Below are positions 3,739 through 20,183 of a stretch of 20,399 nucleotides of DNA, piece after piece (position 1 is the stretch's first letter; every line of letters starts with the position of its first letter). The position numbers were made by a program, and so were the translations under genes. The notes under the pieces were generated by a model. It searched no databases and was not told where the DNA came from. It saw only the letters and a list, made by a program, of their open reading frames with translations. The DNA is from a virus, in IMG/VR virus record IMGVR_UViG_3300046804_002903, positions 1-20,399 of that record. The stretch is one strand, 5' to 3'.

Positions 3739-4193
3739 TGGGCTGGTACGTTAAGATATCAAAAGACATATCTCATATTCCCGATGCTGTGGAGTATTAT
3801 AAAGCAGAGTTAGCTGCCGCCAAAGAAGAATGCCGTATAACGGGAAATATTGAAAAAGCCGCGGCAAATATGCCCGGTATCGTTGAACAGAGATTTGGCC
3901 AGCTTCAAGAAATTGAAGCAATTTTAGAATATCTTAACATTGAATTACGCCGTTTAAAAAGCCAACATTTTCGCAAATACTTAGAAAACTATCAACGTGC
4001 TCTAAGTAGTCGAGATTGCGAAAAATTTGTGGAAGGTGAGGCAGATGTAGTTGACTTTGAAAAAATTATCAACGAATTTGCCTTGCTACGCAACAAGTGG
4101 CTTGGCATTACTAAGGCATTAGATCAAAAGCAATGGCAATTAACAAATATTGTTAAACTACGTGTTGCAGGCATGGAAGATGCCTCTTTATAA
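3738..4193 (+). CDS. uvsY: UvsY-like recombination mediator (probable)
   Basis: A 151-residue, largely helical, charged protein close to the size of T4 UvsY (137). The C-terminal pattern (LDQKQWQLTNIVKLRVAG) matches the layout of the T4 UvsY end (long helix, aromatic, then IxxMR-A-G). A central segment, NYQRALSSRD, could match the UvsY DNA-binding region. UvsY loads UvsX onto gp32-covered DNA, and the direct adjacency to uvsX fits. Similarity is at the level of pattern, so a different helical protein remains possible. The 3' end overlaps the convergent epimerase gene by six bases. Confidence 0.6.
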   Translation: MGWYVKISKDISHIPDAVEYYKAELAAAKEECRITGNIEKAAANMPGIVEQRFGQLQEIEAILEYLNIELRRLKSQHFRKYLENYQRALSSRDCEKFVEGEADVVDFEKIINEFALLRNKWLGITKALDQKQWQLTNIVKLRVAGMEDASL

Positions 4194-5189
4194 TAATTGA
4201 TCTTTCCAAGTCTTAGGAGTTTTTTCATTAATAATTTCTAATGGAAACTCGTAATTAAATAATTTAGGACCTTTAGATCTAATCCAGTTAGCAGTTTCTT
4301 TAATTGCTGTCTTAACTGTAGTTTTTGTCTCATAACCTAAAATTTGTCTTGCTTTATCAGCGGAACAACTTGCATGTTTAACTTCTCTTGGTCTATCAAA
4401 TGTATAGATTGGTTGGCCTGTAAAATTACATTCTTCTGCAATAATTTTTGCAAGTTCATTTATAGTAATAGTGCCTTCATCTGGGCCAATATTGATAATT
4501 TGGCTTGTTAACATTGGATCTAATGCTAATTTTTCTAAACAAAATATACAGTCATCAACGTAACTAAAACATCTAGTCTGTGTTCCATCCCCGTAAATAA
4601 TTGCAGGCTTATTTTGAAGGTTTCTATTAATCATTATGCTTAATACATTTCTAAAAGGATCATCAAATCGTTGCCTTGGTCCTATAATATTGTGAGGTAT
4701 AGCAATATTCCACTCCATACCGTGAGTTTCCGACAAAATTTGCAAAACTTGCTCAGAAGCTACCTTTGCAACAGCATAAGGATCAACAGGCCTAGGAGGC
4801 ATATCTTCGGAAAAAGGAGCCACTTGATCACCATACCGCGCCATACTAGAGCAAAATACAAAACGTCTGACTTTATTTTGAACTGCGGCAGAAATAGTGC
4901 TTACACTTGCTTCAAAAATATTTTTTGTTATAAAACTTGGACTAAAAACACTCAAGCCCTCGTGTGCTGTGGCCGCAGTATGGATTACAACATCCATGTT
5001 TTTTGTTATTTGCGCCATTGCATTTAAATCACGACAATCTACATTATAAAAAACAGCCCGGGGATTAACATTGTCCAAATATCCGCCTAATAAGTTGTCG
5101 TTTCCGTGTACTGTATGGCCAAGAGATATCATTTTATCTGCCAAATGACTACCAAGAAATCCTGCTACGCCAGTTATAAAAATATTCAT
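4188..5189 (-). CDS. NAD-dependent sugar-nucleotide epimerase/dehydratase (extended SDR)
   Basis: A 333-residue extended short-chain dehydrogenase. The NAD-binding GxxGxxG motif (GVAGFLG) is at residues 7-13. An acidic residue follows beta 2 (GNDNLLGG). The catalytic Ser is in FCSSMARYG (about 114-115), and YxxxK is Tyr138-Lys142 (DPYAVAKVASEQ). The C-terminal half has the substrate-domain motifs GDGTQTRCFSYVDD and NIGPDEGTITI typical of UDP-glucose 4-epimerase and related nucleotide-sugar enzymes. It would remodel a nucleotide sugar for a surface glycan or a glycosylated phage component; the substrate cannot be read from the sequence. It is the only minus-strand gene in this half of the window. 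It has its own AAAGGA ribosome binding site and a late-type promoter, so it behaves as an inserted accessory gene. Confidence 0.92.
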   Translation of the reverse strand: MNIFITGVAGFLGSHLADKMISLGHTVHGNDNLLGGYLDNVNPRAVFYNVDCRDLNAMAQITKNMDVVIHTAATAHEGLSVFSPSFITKNIFEASVSTISAAVQNKVRRFVFCSSMARYGDQVAPFSEDMPPRPVDPYAVAKVASEQVLQILSETHGMEWNIAIPHNIIGPRQRFDDPFRNVLSIMINRNLQNKPAIIYGDGTQTRCFSYVDDCIFCLEKLALDPMLTSQIINIGPDEGTITINELAKIIAEECNFTGQPIYTFDRPREVKHASCSADKARQILGYETKTTVKTAIKETANWIRSKGPKLFNYEFPLEIINEKTPKTWKDQLL

Positions 5190-13269: not shown

Positions 13270-13366
13270 ATTTATTTTATCTCCCTGGACAAAATGGCAG
13301 GAGAGACGCAAACTTCAAAAACGTTTAGAAGAATTGCGGAAGAGAGATCCGTTCATTTACAAATGA
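13253..13366 (+). CDS. 37-residue basic small protein between primase and carbamoyltransferase
   Basis: A short ORF beginning inside the end of the primase gene and ending TGA overlapped with the ATG of the next gene (ATGA at 13363-13366). The product has a hydrophobic start (MEKIIKFILSPWTKW) followed by a very basic helix (QERRKLQKRLEELRKRD) and ends PFIYK. It could be a membrane-edge amphipathic peptide. The overlaps on both sides, the clear protein-like composition and my recollection of similar short ORFs after primase in marine T4-like phages support a real gene. The function is unknown. Confidence 0.72.
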   Translation: MEKIIKFILSPWTKWQERRKLQKRLEELRKRDPFIYK

Positions 13367-14835
13367 TTAGTTGGGGCATATCAGCAAATAGCCACGATGC
13401 TGCCTTGGCTGTTTTTGTGGATGAAAAACTGGCATTTGCCAGTCATAGTGAACGATTTAGCAAGAAGAAAAACGATCGAGATCTTGATAAGAATCTTGTA
13501 AGTTATGCTAAACGTTATTGGGGAGAACCTGATCAAATATTTTGGTATGAAAATCCTAAACTAAAAACTTTAAGACAGTGGTATGCTGGCCAAGGCTGGA
13601 GATGGCCAGAAAATAACATTAAAGAATATTTAGAACAGTACGACTTAGATTGTCCTATAAAATATACTAGCCATCATCGTAGCCATGCGGCCCTTGGATA
13701 TTATACTAGTAAGTTTGAGTCAGCATGTGTACTAGTTATAGATGCCATTGGTGAATTTGAAACAGTAACTATATGGAAGGCCGAAGGATTAAAACTAAAA
13801 AAAGTTTACAGTAAATGGTTTCCAAACAGTATTGGTTTATTCTATAGCGCAATGACACAGCGCCTAGGACTTAAACCAAACGAAGAAGAATATATTTTAA
13901 TGGGCATGTCTGCCTACGGTGACCCTAATGAACATTACGCAGACATGATAGGAGATTTTGTTAAAAGATTTGATAATTTTTCCTTTGAAAGAAACTTGCA
14001 TAGAGGATGTAACGATTGGAAAGAAGGGACACCAATAAGTGAATATTTTAACATTGCGGCTTCTACACAAGTAGTATATGAAAGATACTTTGAGGCAGCA
14101 CTAGCATTAGGTAAAAAACTTACTGGCTCAGATAATTTAGTACTAATGGGTGGTTGCGCCCTTAATTGTCTTGCCAACAGGCTTACAGGAAATTATTTTA
14201 CCGACACATGGATATATCCTAATCCGGGAGATGCAGGCAGTGCTATTGGTGCAGTACTAGCACACAAACCATATTGGAAAGATTATACTGACTGGTCTAT
14301 GCCTTTCTTAGGCTATGACATGAAATCGCTAACTGATAATAGAACGATTGTTGACTATTTAAAAACAAACAAAATATGTGGACTAGCTAGGGGCCGCGCA
14401 GAATTTGGTCCAAGAGCATTAGGCAATCGTTCATTGCTGGCAGATCCTAGAGGAACAGATATAAAGGACAAAGTAAATGCAATTAAACAACGACAAGAAT
14501 TTAGACCATTTGCGCCGGTTATTTTGGAGGAGCTATGTGATCAGTATTTTAATATGCCTAATGGTTGGACTAACAGTAGGTATATGCAGGTCGTCGCTAG
14601 GTGCCGGTTTCCTGACCTATTTCCTGCTATCATTCATCGCGACGGTACTAGTAGGGTACAGACACTACCTGCTGATGGTTCTCCATTTAGACAACTTCTA
14701 GAACTTTGGTATAAGGAAACTGGTTGTCCTATGTTGCTCAACACTAGTTTAAATATCAAAGGGCAACCAATGGTAAATGATCATATAGATGCACGGAACT
14801 TTGCTAACCATTATGGTGTTAAAGTTTTTACATAA
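13363..14835 (+). CDS. NodU/CmcH-type carbamoyltransferase
   Basis: A 490-residue member of the carbamoyltransferase family that moves a carbamoyl group from carbamoyl phosphate, via carbamoyl-adenylate, to a hydroxyl of a sugar or small molecule. I take the start at 13363 (MISWGISANSHDAALAVF) because this is where the family fold begins; an ATG at 13294 in the same frame lies within the 37-residue ORF. The metal/active-site motif HHRSHAA is at 104-110, DAIGEFET is near 127, and the C-terminal domain has GRAEFGPRALGNRSLLADPR and LNTSLNIKGQP. It is shorter than typical members (about 550-600), with reduced loops. It sits inside the replication block between primase and gp41. The acceptor, a glycan or modified base, cannot be told. 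Confidence 0.9.
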   Translation: MISWGISANSHDAALAVFVDEKLAFASHSERFSKKKNDRDLDKNLVSYAKRYWGEPDQIFWYENPKLKTLRQWYAGQGWRWPENNIKEYLEQYDLDCPIKYTSHHRSHAALGYYTSKFESACVLVIDAIGEFETVTIWKAEGLKLKKVYSKWFPNSIGLFYSAMTQRLGLKPNEEEYILMGMSAYGDPNEHYADMIGDFVKRFDNFSFERNLHRGCNDWKEGTPISEYFNIAASTQVVYERYFEAALALGKKLTGSDNLVLMGGCALNCLANRLTGNYFTDTWIYPNPGDAGSAIGAVLAHKPYWKDYTDWSMPFLGYDMKSLTDNRTIVDYLKTNKICGLARGRAEFGPRALGNRSLLADPRGTDIKDKVNAIKQRQEFRPFAPVILEELCDQYFNMPNGWTNSRYMQVVARCRFPDLFPAIIHRDGTSRVQTLPADGSPFRQLLELWYKETGCPMLLNTSLNIKGQPMVNDHIDARNFANHYGVKVFT

Positions 14836-14853: not shown

Positions 14854-16275
14854 ATGAAACAGAATATAGACTACGGATTTGACATACAAAAATTATACTT
14901 AGAAATGATGTTGGCAGATGCAGCCACATTTGTTCGTTGCCAAAGTATTTTTGATCACACCTTATTTGACCGTAAACTGCAAAAGGCAGCAGAATTTCTA
15001 AACCATTATGTTGAAGAACATAGCGTAATGCCTACTATTGACATTATGAACGCAGCCACCGGCATCGATTTTAAACCGGGCTCAGAATTGCGAGAAGAAC
15101 ACTTTGATTGGCTAATGAATGACTTTGAAACTTTCATTCGTCACAAGGGCCTAGAACGTGCTATACTAGAGTCAGCAGACTTATTAGAAAAGGGCGAGTA
15201 CGGCCCCGTAGAAGACAAAATCAAACAGGCAGTTCAAATTGGTTTGCAAAAAGACATGGGTACTGATTATTTTGAAGATCCTCGTGCTAGACTATTAAGG
15301 ATTAAAGATAAAAATGGACAAATTTCGACGGGCTGGAAAGCTATTGATGACAAGTTATTTGGAGGCTTTAACCGTGGCGAGCTCAACATTTGGGCGGGCG
15401 GCTCAGGTGCTGGTAAATCCTTATTTCTGGCTAATCTTGGTGTCAATTATGCTCTTAGCGGATTAAATGTACTTTACTTAACATTAGAACTTAGTGAAGA
15501 ACTTGTTAGTATGCGTATTGACGCAATGGTAACTGGAGTGCCTACTAGAGAGATTTTTAAAAGCATTGATGATGTAGAAATGAAGGTTAAAATGATTGGT
15601 AAAAAATCAGGCCAACTACAGGTCAAATATATGCCTAGCGGTAAAACTGTTAATGACATACGTGCGTATCTAAAAGAATATGAAATTAAACTAGGGCGTA
15701 AAATCGACATACTATTAGTTGATTACTTGGATTTGCTTATGCCTATAAGCCGTAAAATTTCAGCAGAAAATCTCTTTATCAAAGACAAATTTGTATCAGA
15801 AGAATTGCGTAATCTAGCAGTTGAAAAGAACTGTGTACTAGTTACTGCGGCACAGTTGAACCGAGGTGCCGTAGAAGAAGTTGAGTTTGATCATAGTCAT
15901 ATTTCAGGTGGCCTGTCAAAGATTCAAACAGCAGATAATGTGTTTGGTATCTTTACGTCACGTGCTATGCGTGAACGTGGACGCTATCAAATACAACTAA
16001 TGAAGACACGTAGTTCAAGTGGTGTTGGCCAAAAGATTGACCTAGAGTTTAACATTGACACACTACGCATCACTGACCTTGTTGAAGATCACGGTAATGC
16101 TCCTAGCAGTGCAGGCACTACCTTGCTCAATCAAATTAAACAACGTGCCACCGTCGATCCTTCAACAGGTGAAGTTAATCCCAACAGCCTCGGGGCTGCA
16201 CCAAAGGTACGCAGTGAAGTTGGCAGTAGTAAACTTAGAGACTTGTTAAACAACTTGCCAACCACAGAAGTCTAA
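14854..16275 (+). CDS. 41: Replicative DNA helicase gp41 (DnaB-like)
   Basis: A 473-residue hexameric replicative helicase of T4 gp41 length (475). The N-terminal helical domain (about 1-130) has the DnaB-type pairing helices. The RecA-like motor follows, with Walker A GGSGAGKS at 182-189, the TLELSEE box near 213 and Walker B DILLVDYLDLL near 285. A later AQLNRGAVEE segment corresponds to motif H3, and a glycine-rich SGVGQK loop (about 390) follows MKTRSS. It unwinds the fork 5' to 3' on the lagging strand together with primase gp61. The tail is Pro/Ser-rich and ends in a short acidic helix (LRDLLNNLPTTEV). No clear Shine-Dalgarno precedes the ATG. Confidence 0.95.
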   Translation: MKQNIDYGFDIQKLYLEMMLADAATFVRCQSIFDHTLFDRKLQKAAEFLNHYVEEHSVMPTIDIMNAATGIDFKPGSELREEHFDWLMNDFETFIRHKGLERAILESADLLEKGEYGPVEDKIKQAVQIGLQKDMGTDYFEDPRARLLRIKDKNGQISTGWKAIDDKLFGGFNRGELNIWAGGSGAGKSLFLANLGVNYALSGLNVLYLTLELSEELVSMRIDAMVTGVPTREIFKSIDDVEMKVKMIGKKSGQLQVKYMPSGKTVNDIRAYLKEYEIKLGRKIDILLVDYLDLLMPISRKISAENLFIKDKFVSEELRNLAVEKNCVLVTAAQLNRGAVEEVEFDHSHISGGLSKIQTADNVFGIFTSRAMRERGRYQIQLMKTRSSSGVGQKIDLEFNIDTLRITDLVEDHGNAPSSAGTTLLNQIKQRATVDPSTGEVNPNSLGAAPKVRSEVGSSKLRDLLNNLPTTEV

Positions 16276-16316
16276 ACTGTTTTTGACGGTTTTTACCAGC
16301 AATTGATAAGTACGTA

Positions 16317-16322
16317 TATAAT
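16317..16322 (+). promoter_or_regulatory. TATAAT box before GNAT-like gene
   Basis: A TATAAT box lies 20 bases before the ATG at 16343. The best upstream box is TTTACC with a 19-base spacer, so support is weak. The same TATATAATAAT string occurs before gp41. Confidence 0.3.
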
Positions 16323-16342
16323 AATCCGAAGAAACACTTATC

Positions 16343-16783
16343 ATGTTGTACCATCTACGCACTACCACCGACCCTCTTATTGATCATGTTAAAGATGATC
16401 CAGTTCGTCCTCACATTCCTATCGAAAAGCGTGTTAACGATCGCAGTGAAATATTAATGCTACGCGAAGCAGAACGTGTGTTGGCCGTTACCTGCATGAC
16501 CTGGACTGACGCAGTACCCAAAGATGAACAAGACCTAGAACAAAAACCTCAAGAAGCTACAACGGCAGTTTTTTACACCATTTGGAGTTATGCTCCAGGT
16601 GCTGGCGCTAGACTGTTACGTGAAGCAGCTGATTGGTTGGTCAAAGACTTTCCTAACTTAAAAAACATAGTTACGCTCAGTCCTCAAACTGAAATGGCTC
16701 GACGCTTTCATTTGAAAAATGGCGCTAAGGTACGCAGAGAAAACACCACCAGCGTTAACTACGAGTACTACACCAAAGAATAA
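16343..16783 (+). CDS. GNAT-like acetyltransferase fold protein
   Basis: A 146-residue protein with the C-terminal half of a GNAT N-acetyltransferase. A strand (ATTAVFYTIWSY) leads to the acetyl-CoA pyrophosphate loop (PGAGARLLREAADWL), a conserved strand (LKNIVTLSP) and the motif RRFHLKNGAKVRRENTT, typical of GNAT motif B. The N-terminal part (VKDDPVRPHIPIEKR) is less typical. It would transfer an acyl group from acetyl-CoA; the target is unknown. It is the first gene after gp41 and the boundary where composition becomes more GC-rich. I recall relatives in marine T4-like phages annotated as hypothetical. Confidence 0.72.
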   Translation: MLYHLRTTTDPLIDHVKDDPVRPHIPIEKRVNDRSEILMLREAERVLAVTCMTWTDAVPKDEQDLEQKPQEATTAVFYTIWSYAPGAGARLLREAADWLVKDFPNLKNIVTLSPQTEMARRFHLKNGAKVRRENTTSVNYEYYTKE

Positions 16784-16797
16784 AAAATTCCTGTGCT

Positions 16798-16805
16798 AAT
16801 AAATA
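16798..16805 (+). promoter_or_regulatory. Late-type promoter AATAAATA for the 16810 gene
   Basis: TAATAAATA ends four bases before the ATG at 16810 and 13 bases before a second in-frame ATG at 16819. The spacing leaves almost no untranslated leader. Confidence 0.55.
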
Positions 16806-16809
16806 TTAG

Positions 16810-17055
16810 ATGCAGAGAATGTTCCCTGAATATTCTATATTTGAGCACTTGGCAGTAGTGCCCTGGCCCAATTATGACAGCCAAGTTGACTGGATCAACA
16901 ACAGTCAAACCCTTGAACGTTGGCTAAATCAATATGTGGGCGCACACTGGGTTAAATGGACTTGGGCTCAAACAGAACTACAAAAAGCCAGCGAAGCATG
17001 TGTGGCCTTTCGTTGGGACAAACATCGCACATTATTTCTTCTTCAATGGGCTTGA
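16810..17055 (+). CDS. Trp-rich small protein of unknown function
   Basis: An 81-residue protein; if the second Met (16819, MFPEYSIFEHLAVVPWPNY) is used, 78 residues. The second Met is slightly favoured by the position of the late-type promoter. It is unusually rich in Trp (about eight residues) and ends with a run of aromatic and basic residues (VAFRWDKHRTLFLLQWA). No motif is recognised. The last 24 bases overlap the end of a convergent minus-strand ORF. The late promoter suggests a late or virion-linked product. Confidence 0.62.
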   Translation: MQRMFPEYSIFEHLAVVPWPNYDSQVDWINNSQTLERWLNQYVGAHWVKWTWAQTELQKASEACVAFRWDKHRTLFLLQWA

Positions 17056-17235
17056 CCACTTGTGCAGTACAGGGTCAATTTGCCATTCAGGCTTAACTGA
17101 TATCAATAAGGGATCTAATTGAAACACTGGAGCAGGCTCAGTAAACCAGGGCCTGAATTCAAAGTGTCTGCGCCAGTCAGCATCAGGGCTAGGTGCAGAA
17201 TACCGAGGGTCGTTGATGGGATTTGTATCAGTCAT
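17032..17235 (-). CDS. Small Pro/Trp-rich protein of unknown function
   Basis: A 67-residue ORF starting MTDTNPINDPRYSAP, rich in Pro, Trp and Asp in the first half and ending in KWSSPLKKK. The composition looks like a short disordered or peptide-like phage protein. The plus-strand ORFs across the same region read as poor protein, which favours this strand. A TATAAGTA box lies four bases upstream of the ATG, sharing its TATAA core with the plus-strand late promoter at 17244. No Shine-Dalgarno is visible. Existence is likely but not certain. Confidence 0.5.
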   Translation of the reverse strand: MTDTNPINDPRYSAPSPDADWRRHFEFRPWFTEPAPVFQLDPLLISVKPEWQIDPVLHKWSSPLKKK

Positions 17236-17239
17236 ACAT

Positions 17240-17247
17240 TACTTATA
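17240..17247 (-). promoter_or_regulatory. Late-like promoter box TATAAGTA (minus)
   Basis: Minus-strand TATAAGTA, one base off the late consensus, lies four bases before the ATG at 17235. It overlaps the plus-strand TATAAATA at 17244-17251, giving a shared, divergently used A/T core. Confidence 0.35.
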
Positions 17248-17251
17248 AATA
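17244..17251 (+). promoter_or_regulatory. Late promoter TATAAATA for exported small protein
   Basis: An exact T4 late consensus lies 21 bases before the ATG at 17273, with GGGAAC between as a possible ribosome binding site. Confidence 0.65.
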
Positions 17252-17272
17252 ACTGGCACTGGGAACATAATC

Positions 17273-17578
17273 ATGAAAAAACTCTTTTTAGCCATGGCCT
17301 TTGCGCTACCCATGGCCAGCACCAACGCTGAATTTCAAATGCGCAAAATCTTGGTCTGTGATGAACGCGAAGTAATATTAGGCGCATTGAGTGAAAAGTT
17401 TAATGAAGTACCAGTTTGGACCGGTCACAGCCCTAGTCAAAAAACTGATCTTGTGCTAACGGAAAATGCCGAAACGGGCGCTTGGACTTTGGTAGAACTA
17501 ATAGACGAGCGCATAGTGTGTGTTCTAGCAGTAGGAGAGCGCACCAGCCACAAGATCAAAAGTCGGTATAGTACTTGA
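17273..17578 (+). CDS. Exported small protein with signal peptide
   Basis: A 101-residue protein with a classic type I signal peptide: MKKLF basic start, hydrophobic core LAMAFALPMA, and a likely cut after STNA (about residue 19). The mature part (about 80 residues) is a small alpha/beta protein with two Cys (CDERE, VCVLA) that could pair in the periplasm, and the segment TGAWTLVELIDERIVCVLAVG. No family is firmly recognised. It has its own exact late promoter. A late exported product of this kind could act at the host envelope (lysis, exclusion or particle release), but this is only inference. Confidence 0.75.
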   Translation: MKKLFLAMAFALPMASTNAEFQMRKILVCDEREVILGALSEKFNEVPVWTGHSPSQKTDLVLTENAETGAWTLVELIDERIVCVLAVGERTSHKIKSRYST

Positions 17579-17584
17579 ATAAAA

Positions 17585-17592
17585 CATAAATA
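17585..17592 (+). promoter_or_regulatory. Late-type promoter CATAAATA before small frameshifted ORF
   Basis: CATAAATA lies 25 bases before the ATG at 17618, and a very strong ribosome binding site (GGGAGGAAA, 17605-17613) lies between. Confidence 0.55.
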
Positions 17593-17617
17593 AGTATGCA
17601 ACAAGGGAGGAAATACT

Positions 17618-17738
17618 ATGTATAAGCGCACCCGTAAAATGTGTCATTTGGAAAATCCGCCAAACTGATGTTGCAGTAATCAATGACGAAAAATACATTA
17701 TCGGGACGGTCCCGAATAACCCAGCCCTAATAGATTAG
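17618..17738 (+). pseudogene. Small ORF apparently split by +1 frameshift in an A run
   Basis: From the ATG at 17618, preceded by a strong GGGAGGAAA site, the frame reads MYKRTRKMCHLENPPN and stops at 17668. In the +1 frame, starting after the A-run at 17636-17639, a protein-like sequence continues (CVIWKIRQTDVAVINDEKY, then IIGTVPNNPALID) to a stop at 17736-17738. That frame has no start codon of its own. Dropping one A would give a single 39-residue protein ending on the terminator hairpin. It may be a true frameshift mutation, a sequencing or assembly slip in the homopolymer, or programmed frameshifting. Confidence 0.45.
17701..17715. repeat. Perfect short inverted repeat TCGGGA-CGG-TCCCGA
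   Basis: Six perfect pairs around a three-base loop, inside the 3' part of the small split ORF and eight bases before the terminator stem. It could be an extra RNA hairpin or an operator. Confidence 0.5.
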
Positions 17739-17749
17739 GGCTTTTTTTT
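17723..17749 (+). terminator. Perfect rho-independent terminator
   Basis: AGCCCTAA (17723-17730) and TTAGGGCT (17735-17742) form a perfect eight-pair stem with a TAGA loop, followed by seven more T residues. This is the clearest terminator in the window, closing the transcript from the late promoter at 17585. Confidence 0.92.
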
Positions 17750-17760
17750 GAGGAAAAATT

Positions 17761-17955
17761 ATGACAGAAACACACCGTAGAACCATAATCAGAGCCATAA
17801 GCTGGCGCATAGTGGCCACCCTGGTAACAGCAGCGTTCACAGGCCTATCAGGCGCCATATTGATCAATATTTGGATGACACTAGCGCACTATGCACATGA
17901 GCGTGCGTGGTTAAAGCTCAAGTGGGGATTAGAGCCGCAGAGCGGAAAAGATTAG
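17761..17955 (+). CDS. DUF2061-family small membrane protein
   Basis: A 64-residue protein matching the DUF2061 pattern. A basic start (THRRTIIRAISWRIVATLVTA) carries the conserved SWR-x-x-ATL, followed by a hydrophobic segment (GLSGAILINIWMTLAHY) and the hallmark HERAWLKLKWG. It would form two short membrane helices. The family is found in bacteria, with no established biochemical role. A strong AGGAAAA ribosome binding site lies just upstream, immediately after the terminator, so it must be expressed by read-through or by an unseen promoter. Confidence 0.82.
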   Translation: MTETHRRTIIRAISWRIVATLVTAAFTGLSGAILINIWMTLAHYAHERAWLKLKWGLEPQSGKD

Positions 17956-18017
17956 AAAATCGCGAAGCGCAAAAAAGCCGCGTAGCGGTAGCGGTGCGCA
18001 CGACCCAGTGCTACTGA
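17956..18017. other. Short GC-rich intergenic stretch with imperfect hairpin
   Basis: Between the DUF2061 stop and the end of the minus-strand 54-residue gene. GCGCA (about 17962) and TGCGC (about 17994) can pair around a GC-rich core with repeated TAGCGG. No U-tract follows. It may be a weak bidirectional terminator between convergent genes. Confidence 0.35.
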
Positions 18018-18182
18018 TTAGGCCGGAACATCACGGGCCACACAGCGAGCCACTAGATCAGGTTTATTTTTTACAATGATTGTGGCCACTTCCCAACACT
18101 CTTCAAAGCGTGTGTAACTCTTCCACTCCTGTTCTTGCCCAGTGCTTAGCCAAAATACAAACAGCACATAAACAGTGGTCAT
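18018..18182 (-). CDS. 54-residue protein with hydrophobic N-terminus
   Basis: A short gene whose ATG at 18182 lies 12 bases after the stop of the metallopeptidase-like gene, with a good AAAGGAAAA ribosome binding site between. The product begins MTTVYVLFVFWLSTGQ, a signal-like or membrane segment. A polar part follows with two Cys (YTRFEECWEVA and LVARCVARDVPA) that could form a disulfide outside the cytoplasm. No family is recognised. The tight spacing indicates co-transcription with the HELTH protein and suggests a shared job at or beyond the inner membrane. Confidence 0.75.
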   Translation of the reverse strand: MTTVYVLFVFWLSTGQEQEWKSYTRFEECWEVATIIVKNKPDLVARCVARDVPA

Positions 18183-18194
18183 AATAGTTTTCCT

Positions 18195-18719
18195 TTATTG
18201 ATTAGGATGAGCTGCACAGCTTCTCTGCACCTCATCCCACATGGCATAACGTTCGCGCTCTCCGTGATACACACTGTAGACCACATCAGCAAGTGCTTTT
18301 GTTATAGCCATATATTCTCTGTTACAATGATGTTTATTATTAAAATCATGTACAAATTGACTTCTAGTATATTCCCAATTGTTTTCACGCATGATAAATG
18401 CATAGTGTGTAAGCTCATGCCCTACAGCCCAGTCTAGCATTTCATACCCATAGTTTTTTAAAGTACTGGGTGCAATGCTGATCTGCATGGGATAAGCGTC
18501 AGTGGGCAGTATGGGAAACTGAAATATCATTCTAGCACCCGGCGGCAATTCTTCTACCACAATAGGCGGCATGGGTAGGTTGGCGGGAGCACCTACTGCT
18601 TGTTTGATAAATTTCCACTCTAGTTCAATTACAGGCCAGTCTAAACCTGTGGGCCTGGCGCTGGCAAAACAAGTCCCAGTAATTAGACCAAATAACAAGG
18701 CCACAGCTAATGATCGCAT
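18195..18719 (-). CDS. Exported putative zinc metallopeptidase (HELTH motif)
   Basis: A 174-residue protein with a signal peptide (MRSLAVALLFGLITGTCFASA, likely cut near 20-21). A zincin-type motif HELTHYAFI is at 101-109 (the HExxH zinc ligands and catalytic Glu). Downstream, HHCNREYMA at 130-138 could give the third ligand (His or Glu). Cys132 and Cys168 may pair. The length after cleavage (about 153) suits a minimal zincin, and no prodomain is visible. It presumably acts in the periplasm or outside the cell, on peptides or envelope protein, but the substrate is unknown and the third ligand is not proven. AAGGA precedes the ATG and a late-type promoter lies 20 bases upstream. Confidence 0.78.
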   Translation of the reverse strand: MRSLAVALLFGLITGTCFASARPTGLDWPVIELEWKFIKQAVGAPANLPMPPIVVEELPPGARMIFQFPILPTDAYPMQISIAPSTLKNYGYEMLDWAVGHELTHYAFIMRENNWEYTRSQFVHDFNNKHHCNREYMAITKALADVVYSVYHGERERYAMWDEVQRSCAAHPNQ

Positions 18720-18738
18720 GGCACAGTCCTTAAACTAG

Positions 18739-18746
18739 TATTTATG
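18739..18746 (-). promoter_or_regulatory. Late-type promoter CATAAATA for the metallopeptidase gene pair
   Basis: The minus strand reads CATAAATACTAG, 19 bases before the ATG at 18719, followed by AAGGACTG as ribosome binding site. Confidence 0.6.
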
Positions 18747-18767
18747 TACAGGCTAAAAGGGTCTACA

Positions 18768-18803
18768 ACGCAAAAAAATTTGCCAAGTACTTGAGCTTGG
18801 TGC
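18768..18803. repeat. Copy A of AAGTACTT-centred intergenic repeat
   Basis: Contains CGCAAAAAAATTT, then AAGTACTT (18785-18792) and a nearby TTGGTG. Copies B (20211-20250) and C (20297-20335) share the layout. Read on the minus strand, CCAAG/CTTGG can pair, followed by CAAATTTTTTT, so it could also end the minus-strand gene that stops at 18804. Confidence 0.5.
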
Positions 18804-19550
18804 TTAACCGATATTGCCCTGACGAACGTCGTTAATGTTTGGTAGTGTGGCCATTACCTGGTGCGCCGTAGCAGCATCTGTAGCCCAAGGATTTAACTTG
18901 TAAAGTAGTCTTGGAGCCACATCACCGTTTAAGAACAGAGCTTGTCCCGCAGGATAAGTCAGTGCTTTGGCTATATACTCCCATCCGCTTTCATTTGGTC
19001 TATTTGGATCTGCATCAGTTCCAGTATATGCCGGCCCGGTTTGTCCACGCACAGCATCAACTAAGCGGGCAAATGGATAGCTTGACGAATTCAATGTGCC
19101 AATTGCGTCAGGATCGTGTTTGCCGTAGTATTCAGGATTGGCTTCTTTTTCAGCAAAGGCCTTGTATCGGTCCAATTGTTTCTGCTTTAGATCAGCGGCT
19201 GCTGCCTTGCCCTGTTGACGTAAGGCTGCAATAGAAGCAGTGTATCGAGCAAAAGTTTGATCCCATTTGGCCTTATCCTGTGCTTGTTCTTCTGGACTGC
19301 GACCTTGACTGGTTAACCCGTTACCAAACTCAGATATGTCCTTGTATGTGGCTTTGAGTTGTTCAGCAGTAGGAGTTACTAGTTTAGGTAATTTTTGTGC
19401 TGGCTGCGCACCTTGCGCACTCGCCCCAGGTTGTGTAGGTGCAGTAGTAGGTGGTGTTGGCGCAGCGGGAGCAACGGGTTGTGTGGGAGCTGGGATTTCA
19501 GCTTCTTTTAAGATATCTATGTATTTTCTAAAAAATCGTGGGTCACTCAT
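18804..19550 (-). CDS. Probable internal head/structural protein with propeptide-like N-terminus
   Basis: A 248-residue protein starting MSDPRFFRKYIDILKEAE. This basic amphipathic leader ends L-K-E|A, matching the (L/I)xE cleavage rule of T4 prohead protease. A long Pro/Ala/Gln/Thr linker (about 20-55) follows, then a helical charged segment (about 60-130) and a more globular C-terminal part (SSSYPFARLVDAVRG to the end). No catalytic motif was found. A late-type promoter and GAGG ribosome binding site lie directly upstream. The pattern (leader, disordered linker, domain) fits a protein packaged in the prohead, as with T4 internal proteins. This is inference; the sequence shows only the leader and composition. 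Confidence 0.75.
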   Translation of the reverse strand: MSDPRFFRKYIDILKEAEIPAPTQPVAPAAPTPPTTAPTQPGASAQGAQPAQKLPKLVTPTAEQLKATYKDISEFGNGLTSQGRSPEEQAQDKAKWDQTFARYTASIAALRQQGKAAAADLKQKQLDRYKAFAEKEANPEYYGKHDPDAIGTLNSSSYPFARLVDAVRGQTGPAYTGTDADPNRPNESGWEYIAKALTYPAGQALFLNGDVAPRLLYKLNPWATDAATAHQVMATLPNINDVRQGNIG

Positions 19551-19589: not shown

Positions 19590-20183
19590 ATGCGAGTAAG
19601 AGAAATATTAGAAGCGTTTGACACAGACGTGCCTGCCAACATAGAGTGGGAACAAAAGAAAGGACAAATCAATGCGTACTTTCGTGATCCTACGGGTGGT
19701 GGAAGGGGCAATATCTTGCACGATCTAAACCCGCTTAAAATACCCTACACTGAAGGACAGATGCAACAAGATCCAGTATTCAGCGATCCAGAATTGGTAA
19801 AGATACTGTCATACTATCTAACACCCCGTGTAATGAACTTGCTGGCACCTATGAGTCCTTATACTCCGGGAAGTGGTAACGAACGTTGGAAGAGCAAGTA
19901 TGACGCTATTGTAGCCATTATTGGGCCCATGCTTAAAAAGCCCAATCCAGATATTCACGCAATAATACAAGTAGTGGACAAGCAAATTCCCATAGTAGGC
20001 ATGCCAACATGGATTAAGGATGTAATACTATCAGCAGATCAACGCTATAAGCAAGCTGAACTAGCATATCAGAAGAATCAAGCAGACCGAAAGAATTGGC
20101 GACCAACAGGTGATAAGCAAGCGGGTAATTGGGTAATAGTAGACGAACCGCCGGACACAATGCCGGCACCTTTTAAGCCATAA
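19590..20183 (+). CDS. Probable structural protein with propeptide-like N-terminus
   Basis: A 197-residue protein starting MRVREILEAFD. The leader ends I-L-E|A, again fitting a T4-type prohead protease site. After a Gly-rich turn (DPTGGGRGNIL), the body is mixed helical with several Pro-rich loops. It includes LVKILSYYLTPRVMNLLAPMSPYTPGSG and a long charged helix (SADQRYKQAELAYQKNQADRK). The end is Pro-rich. No enzymatic motif is visible. The start is fixed by the leader similarity to 732 and 18804, although there is no ribosome binding site and the late promoter sits only four bases away, so translation may be leaderless. Confidence 0.75.
   Translation: MRVREILEAFDTDVPANIEWEQKKGQINAYFRDPTGGGRGNILHDLNPLKIPYTEGQMQQDPVFSDPELVKILSYYLTPRVMNLLAPMSPYTPGSGNERWKSKYDAIVAIIGPMLKKPNPDIHAIIQVVDKQIPIVGMPTWIKDVILSADQRYKQAELAYQKNQADRKNWRPTGDKQAGNWVIVDEPPDTMPAPFKP

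Follow-up and report, generated by a model that had tools for sequence, protein, structure and literature searches.

Why should a phage carry the gene for a small, exported protein with the HExxH motif, and what might such a protein do in an infection? The question is raised by the gene at 18195-18719 (minus strand) of the virus record analysed here, the whole 20,399 bases of which we call the window. This gene is real. It codes for a peptidase-like protein of 174 amino acids, as small as an earlier note made from the letters of this DNA had said, and it has the motif HELTH at codons 101-105 (18405-18419, minus strand), from which we name the protein and its family. The earlier note also took the protein to be exported and expressed late, and prediction supports it on both points. 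The N-terminus, MRSLAVALLFGLITGTCFASA followed by RP, combines a charged n-region with a hydrophobic core (Kyte-Doolittle 2.65 over 11 residues) and, by a simple hydropathy rule, an ASA cleavage site; together these look like a tripartite type I signal peptide occupying codons 1-20 (18660-18719, minus strand). Signal peptides are likewise apparent in phage and host relatives. As for late expression, CATAAATA lies at 18746-18739 (minus strand), 19 bases 5' of the ATG of the HELTH gene, and this word and TATAAATA are what we take to be the T4-type late element. The window is not significantly enriched in the pattern YATAAATA, which occurs there 8 times against 5.0 expected, and 13 of 100 shuffles reach 8. 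When the window is taken together with 81 related loci, 76 of 136 TATAAATA sites and 68 of 97 CATAAATA sites lie 8-50 bases 5' of a start on the same strand, as against 775 of 11,747 (6.6%) for the 55 other letter orderings of TATAAATA that served as a control. It is this position relative to permuted words, not abundance, that makes a T4-type late promoter for the HELTH gene a well supported prediction.

The phage setting agrees with such a promoter. PHROG matches in the window are to a single-strand binding protein, a UvsX-like recombinase, helicases, a primase and a DnaB-like helicase, and because of these replication and recombination matches the window was placed among the T4-like phages, of one of which it is a fragment; it has both T4-type replication and recombination genes and late promoters. 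The likely hosts are freshwater Burkholderiales of the Comamonadaceae. Inside the replication gene cluster two genes look, by eye, like a carbamoyltransferase (13294-14835, plus strand) and an NAD-dependent epimerase (4188-5189, minus strand). As probes of phage kinship, a 395-aa protein proved to be non-conserved, and the helicase found a match of 56% identity in G013 and none in G012, G014 and G015, all three of which are fragments.

No Pfam, PHROG or NCBIfam model matched the HELTH protein at its cut-off or at E ≤ 0.001 and, as judged from sequence, the family is claimed by no curated family. Exact-peptide scans with the single protein gave no match in viral contigs or genome contigs, tblastn of phages gave only matches with E of at least 4, megablast gave none, and of the PDB sequence searches one had a best E of 0.16 and another had no match. 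The family was found by means of a degenerate DNA pattern for GHELTHYA. In viral contigs this pattern had seven matches, and relatives are encoded on four other viral contigs; three of the seven matches (L083, L084 and L088) are due to chance. In genomes it had 14 matches, of which 11 are real loci in freshwater Burkholderiales MAGs and three (L095, L097 and L104) are again chance. The family search that the earlier note had proposed has thus yielded kin in phages and, what the note did not foresee, a chromosomal host family. The four viral contigs encode two distinct proteins that are about 62% identical to that of the window, the phage copies being 62-69% identical to one another, and the host kin are found by phmmer with E values from 3e-47 to 7e-21. 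The HELTH protein has all the marks of the family, namely, a signal peptide, W97, GHExxHY, HHC, E163, SC168, P172 and Q174.

In one genus, 21 of 84 genomes hold 39 copies, with at most three in each, whereas at the level of the family matches occur in 2 of 299 genomes and at that of the order in 1 of 300 (both of the latter counts include the centre genome, G006). This argues that the HELTH family is, as far as sampled, nearly confined to one genus of freshwater bacteria and its presumed phages. The host genes are chromosomal and their neighbourhoods recur: with neighbours named by eye, one type lies with petC, sspA/sspB, DUF721 and secA, and a second type adjoins an ankyrin-repeat protein and a PQQ-type dehydrogenase. 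Some host members (L101, L094, L098, L119, L120, L139 and L140) are long, about 320-350 aa, with an extra exported N-terminal domain fused to the peptidase domain. Two of the MAGs, L100 and L103, are titled Bordetella parapertussis and Rickettsia typhi; they have the same secA-linked neighbourhood and fall within the genus set of the freshwater Comamonadaceae, and the titles look mistaken. A search of the literature on phage-borne exported metallopeptidases found no paper on this family, which does not prove its absence from print; a term search of a paper on a Limnohabitans phage (PMC12195039) gave no match for peptidase, protease, periplasm, SprT, signal peptide or M48.

Does the motif mark a zinc site? 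The earlier note, which called the protein zincin-like, would have given this up if HExxH varied among homologues or if the fold had no room for zinc. His101, Glu102, His105, His130, His131, Cys132, Glu163 and Cys168 show no variation in 37 of 37 aligned rows; at position 135 there is Glu in 35 rows and Asp in two. The 37 rows represent 36 genes, L099 being a truncated copy of L111; the partial rows L087, L089 and L096 were dropped before counting, and 33 of the 39 host places in the genus are included, one of the six excluded, G323, having an internal TAG. Since HExxH is kept in every row, the motif is more than chance. The fold was predicted with AlphaFold2 from 14 sequences (mean pLDDT 88.2, pTM 0.83, with values under 50 only at residues 1-18). 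In VIA-align this model ranks selecase first (Z 8.9, 107 residues aligned, 3.2 A), then abylysin (8.1), jannalysin (7.9) and Spartan (7.7), and most of the rows below these are larger zincins, with the best Z close to the 7-8 that the tool states as typical where there is no clear match. Foldseek had no match at E ≤ 0.001, its best being 0.076 for Spartan, with selecase at E of at least 0.2. The match is nevertheless credible because the top rows are all HExxH enzymes, and we regard the HELTH protein as having, below clear significance, a predicted zincin-type fold nearest to selecase, the minigluzincins and Spartan. The note's two refuting conditions thus leave the zincin-like reading standing, with the zinc site itself a candidate.

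For the third zinc ligand there are several candidates. Codons 130-133 (18321-18332, minus strand) read HHCN and supply His130 and His131 as well as Cys132; the alignments of two SprT models to the HELTH protein, weak as they are (E 0.052 and 0.0087), both stop at residue 131, which favours His131. His130, Glu135 or the invariant Glu163 (18231-18233, minus strand) are possible alternatives. In the model Cys132 and Cys168 (18216-18218, minus strand) lie at corresponding ends of the two helices of the last hairpin (134-151/154-170), and they probably form a disulphide, which would fit an oxidising compartment.

How did the gene come to the phage? In a tree of 35 rows, from which L099 and L138 were additionally dropped, the three phage proteins form one clade (100/98) that is sister to group C of the host paralogues (95/93), with phage and group C joined by long branches of about 1.1 each, a kind of join that the tree program warns may be false. 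The GC content of the HELTH gene is 43%, that of the window 38% and that of sampled host genes roughly 46-55%. To us this suggests one ancient event of capture by phages, or of passage among them, and since the host family is broad and its loci are fixed the direction would be from host to phage.

Comparison with a sister phage, L082, shows what can stand in place of the gene. L082 is 95% identical to the window over 15390-18198, and identity resumes at 18795; the segment between, at 18199-18794 (no strand assigned), is exchanged as a one-gene cassette for 2811-3568 of L082. The HELTH gene is absent from the whole 21.8-kb record of L082 and is therefore probably dispensable. This raises the alternative that it is a neutral passenger, a captured host gene of no benefit to the phage, and its absence from L082, and from each of the 80 other helicase-linked loci within its extent, is what one would then expect. 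The phage copies, however, are under purifying selection (dN/dS 0.13 between two of them), all candidate catalytic positions have been kept in spite of the divergence among these copies, the gene has its own phage-type promoter, and its GC has drifted from the host range towards lower values. A neutral passenger is thus already disfavoured, and we consider it improbable.

In L082 the slot is filled by a gene for a 252-aa protein with HEVGH and ELAAD, which beyond the motif has no similarity to the HELTH protein. It is nearest to peptidase models U49, M78 and M48, just under their cut-offs, and has kin in L029 and L008. The three M48/M78-like HExxH proteins of these T4-like phages are encoded at L082 2807-3565 (minus strand), L029 19980-20690 (minus strand) and L008 14324-15223 (plus strand); two of them start with possible head-targeting leaders (ALSEA in L082 and ALTEA in L029) and may be packaged peptidases. 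In the window and the 81 loci only 11 of 1235 ORFs of 80-350 aa contain HExxH, and because the motif is so rare it is suggestive that one slot should hold two HExxH proteins that are unrelated, as a single case that was noticed after the fact. The broader reading, in which a stolen host periplasmic protease serves late in infection to weaken the envelope (or for exclusion) and, in addition, the slot is one where phages exchange different zinc peptidases, that of L082 being perhaps head-packaged, is tentative, and we doubt it more than we believe it. With the swap found in a near-identical phage, the peptidase-slot idea can nevertheless be put to the test.

The same region bears on whether the HELTH protein might itself be packaged. 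In the window, proteins with short leaders ending in L/I-x-E are encoded at 732-1085, 18804-19550 and 19590-20183, and such leaders are a motif of the internal head proteins of T4 and of head targeting. The 19590-type gene is partly replaced in L082. The earlier note had thought of virion-associated entry, and a head-packaged protein acting at entry would suit a slot that is flanked by the second and third of these genes and is held in L082 by the ALSEA protein with its L029 relative. The HELTH protein, on the other hand, has a signal peptide instead of a head-targeting leader, its host relatives resemble cellular proteins that are exported, and we found no evidence of virion association, which makes this reading very improbable.

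Downstream of the HELTH gene is an ORF of 54 amino acids (18018-18182, minus strand), which the earlier note described correctly as beginning 12 bases after the HELTH gene and as having a ribosome binding site, a hydrophobic N-terminus and two cysteines. The ribosome binding site, AAGGA, overlaps the upstream stop codon, and the cysteines are Cys29 and Cys47. Close spacing and these features would suit a dedicated partner, that is, an inhibitor, anchor or immunity protein that restrains or tethers the peptidase, and precedents exist in that a small ORF often lies downstream of VgrG2b-type peptidases (PMC6899460) and that Mtz is paired with Tim (PMC8235301). Co-occurrence, which the note had proposed as a check, does not bear this out. 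Of the 33 phage records that were searched, 2 have the 54-aa ORF, namely the window and L082. L082 is without the HELTH gene, and the ORF is absent from all four other HELTH phage contigs, which are fragments; at the host loci, where ORFs of at least 70 aa were listed, no obvious equivalent stands beside the HELTH gene. Since co-occurrence is broken both ways, an inhibitor or anchor dedicated to this peptidase is unlikely, and we look on the ORF as a neighbour; that it should be a dedicated partner of any kind is quite improbable.

Another neighbour keeps better company with the gene. About 0.6 kb from it, at 17273-17578 (plus strand), is the gene for an exported protein of 101 aa whose relatives are encoded on every one of the five HELTH phage contigs and which has a PHROG match of unknown function only. 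Members of its family are about 100 aa, exported and have two cysteines, and the gene is duplicated in L085/L086. This family is not restricted to those contigs: 6 of 80 helicase-linked loci that lack HELTH have a member, as does L082, and its range among phages is thus wider. The gene lies near primase and helicase genes, a position like that of T4 spackle. Spackle of T4 is an exported exclusion protein encoded near genes 61/41. These parallels, together with the predicted export and late expression of the HELTH protein, would be consistent with superinfection exclusion or surface change, in which cleavage by the peptidase of a periplasmic target, either a receptor or an incoming phage protein, would protect the infected cell or the progeny. 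We consider this rather unlikely, as any such receptor or target is so far hypothetical and the neighbouring family has nothing beyond its uninformative PHROG match.

The reading that we prefer, and to which we give an even chance of being right, is that a T4-like phage carries a captured zincin of a host family which is made late, exported, binds zinc and cuts envelope proteins of the infected cell. The phage would have acquired the zinc-peptidase-like gene from its likely hosts and would transcribe it from the late promoter. Its signal peptide should take the HELTH protein to the periplasm, in which a disulphide between Cys132 and Cys168 could form; with a fold of the minigluzincin/SprT type it would hold zinc through His101, His105 and the third ligand, with Glu102 as the general base. 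Late in infection it may then cleave one or a few envelope proteins, and the outcome would be easier lysis or an envelope remodelled as it is by the host enzyme. The role in lysis, and with it the envelope weakening that the earlier note had listed, is drawn from analogy. The gene, its kinship, its conservation and the purifying selection on it are established, whereas export, timing and fold are predictions, and catalysis, substrate and benefit to the phage are conjecture. Export of a phage's own proteases into the envelope is, to our knowledge, a little-known phenomenon. The HELTH family is small, defined and probably disulphide-bearing, and its host and phage versions can be compared directly. 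If lysis is indeed eased, a protease step would be added to those of holin, endolysin and spanin; if instead the protein keeps out rivals, there would be a new exclusion mechanism.

Among known systems, SprT/Spartan (PF10263, NF003339; PDB 6MDX) shares with the HELTH protein a weak but repeated signal ending at His131, which for the best member of the family reaches E 0.0017 and 0.00013, as well as the fold similarity noted above, and SprT-like proteins of phages turn up often in the viral structure list. Nevertheless, the scores of the HELTH protein are far under the cut-offs (13.8 against 25.6 bits for PF10263 and 15.7 against 113 bits for NF003339), none of four records is over the cut-off of the SprT models, the profile-profile probability is 18% with four SprT proteins, and SprT and Spartan act in DNA repair in the cytosol or nucleus whereas the HELTH protein is, by prediction, exported. 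The minigluzincins abylysin, jannalysin and selecase (PDB 4JIU, 4JIX and 4QHI) are, like it, single small HExxH domains, and the predicted fold aligns over all 107 of the 107 residues of selecase. Unlike them the HELTH protein has an apparent export signal, an invariant HHC and a probable disulphide, and Glu as its third ligand is a candidate only; minigluzincins are absent from its PDB sequence matches at E ≤ 10. The C-terminal gluzincin of VgrG2b is also an HExxH peptidase with periplasmic action, which for the HELTH protein is predicted, and it is reported to lyse cells while leaving peptidoglycan unhydrolysed (PMC6899460). VgrG2b has features of its own, being of the DUF4157 type and delivered by a T6SS, with Glu as third ligand and a cognate immunity protein; DUF4157 was not among the Pfam matches at E ≤ 10 for the HELTH protein or at E ≤ 1 for 14 family members. 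The Mtz-Tim pair of Listeria, a secreted metzincin of phage origin with a TIMP-like lipoprotein partner, is reported to raise phage lysis and release (PMC8235301) and, like the HELTH protein as predicted, is a phage-associated secreted metallopeptidase. Mtz, however, is a metzincin of a Gram-positive system that requires Tim, whereas the HELTH protein is without a conserved partner. The likeness of the HELTH protein to VgrG2b and to Mtz is taken here as one of analogy, and by this analogy the cutting of envelope proteins late in infection could be of consequence.
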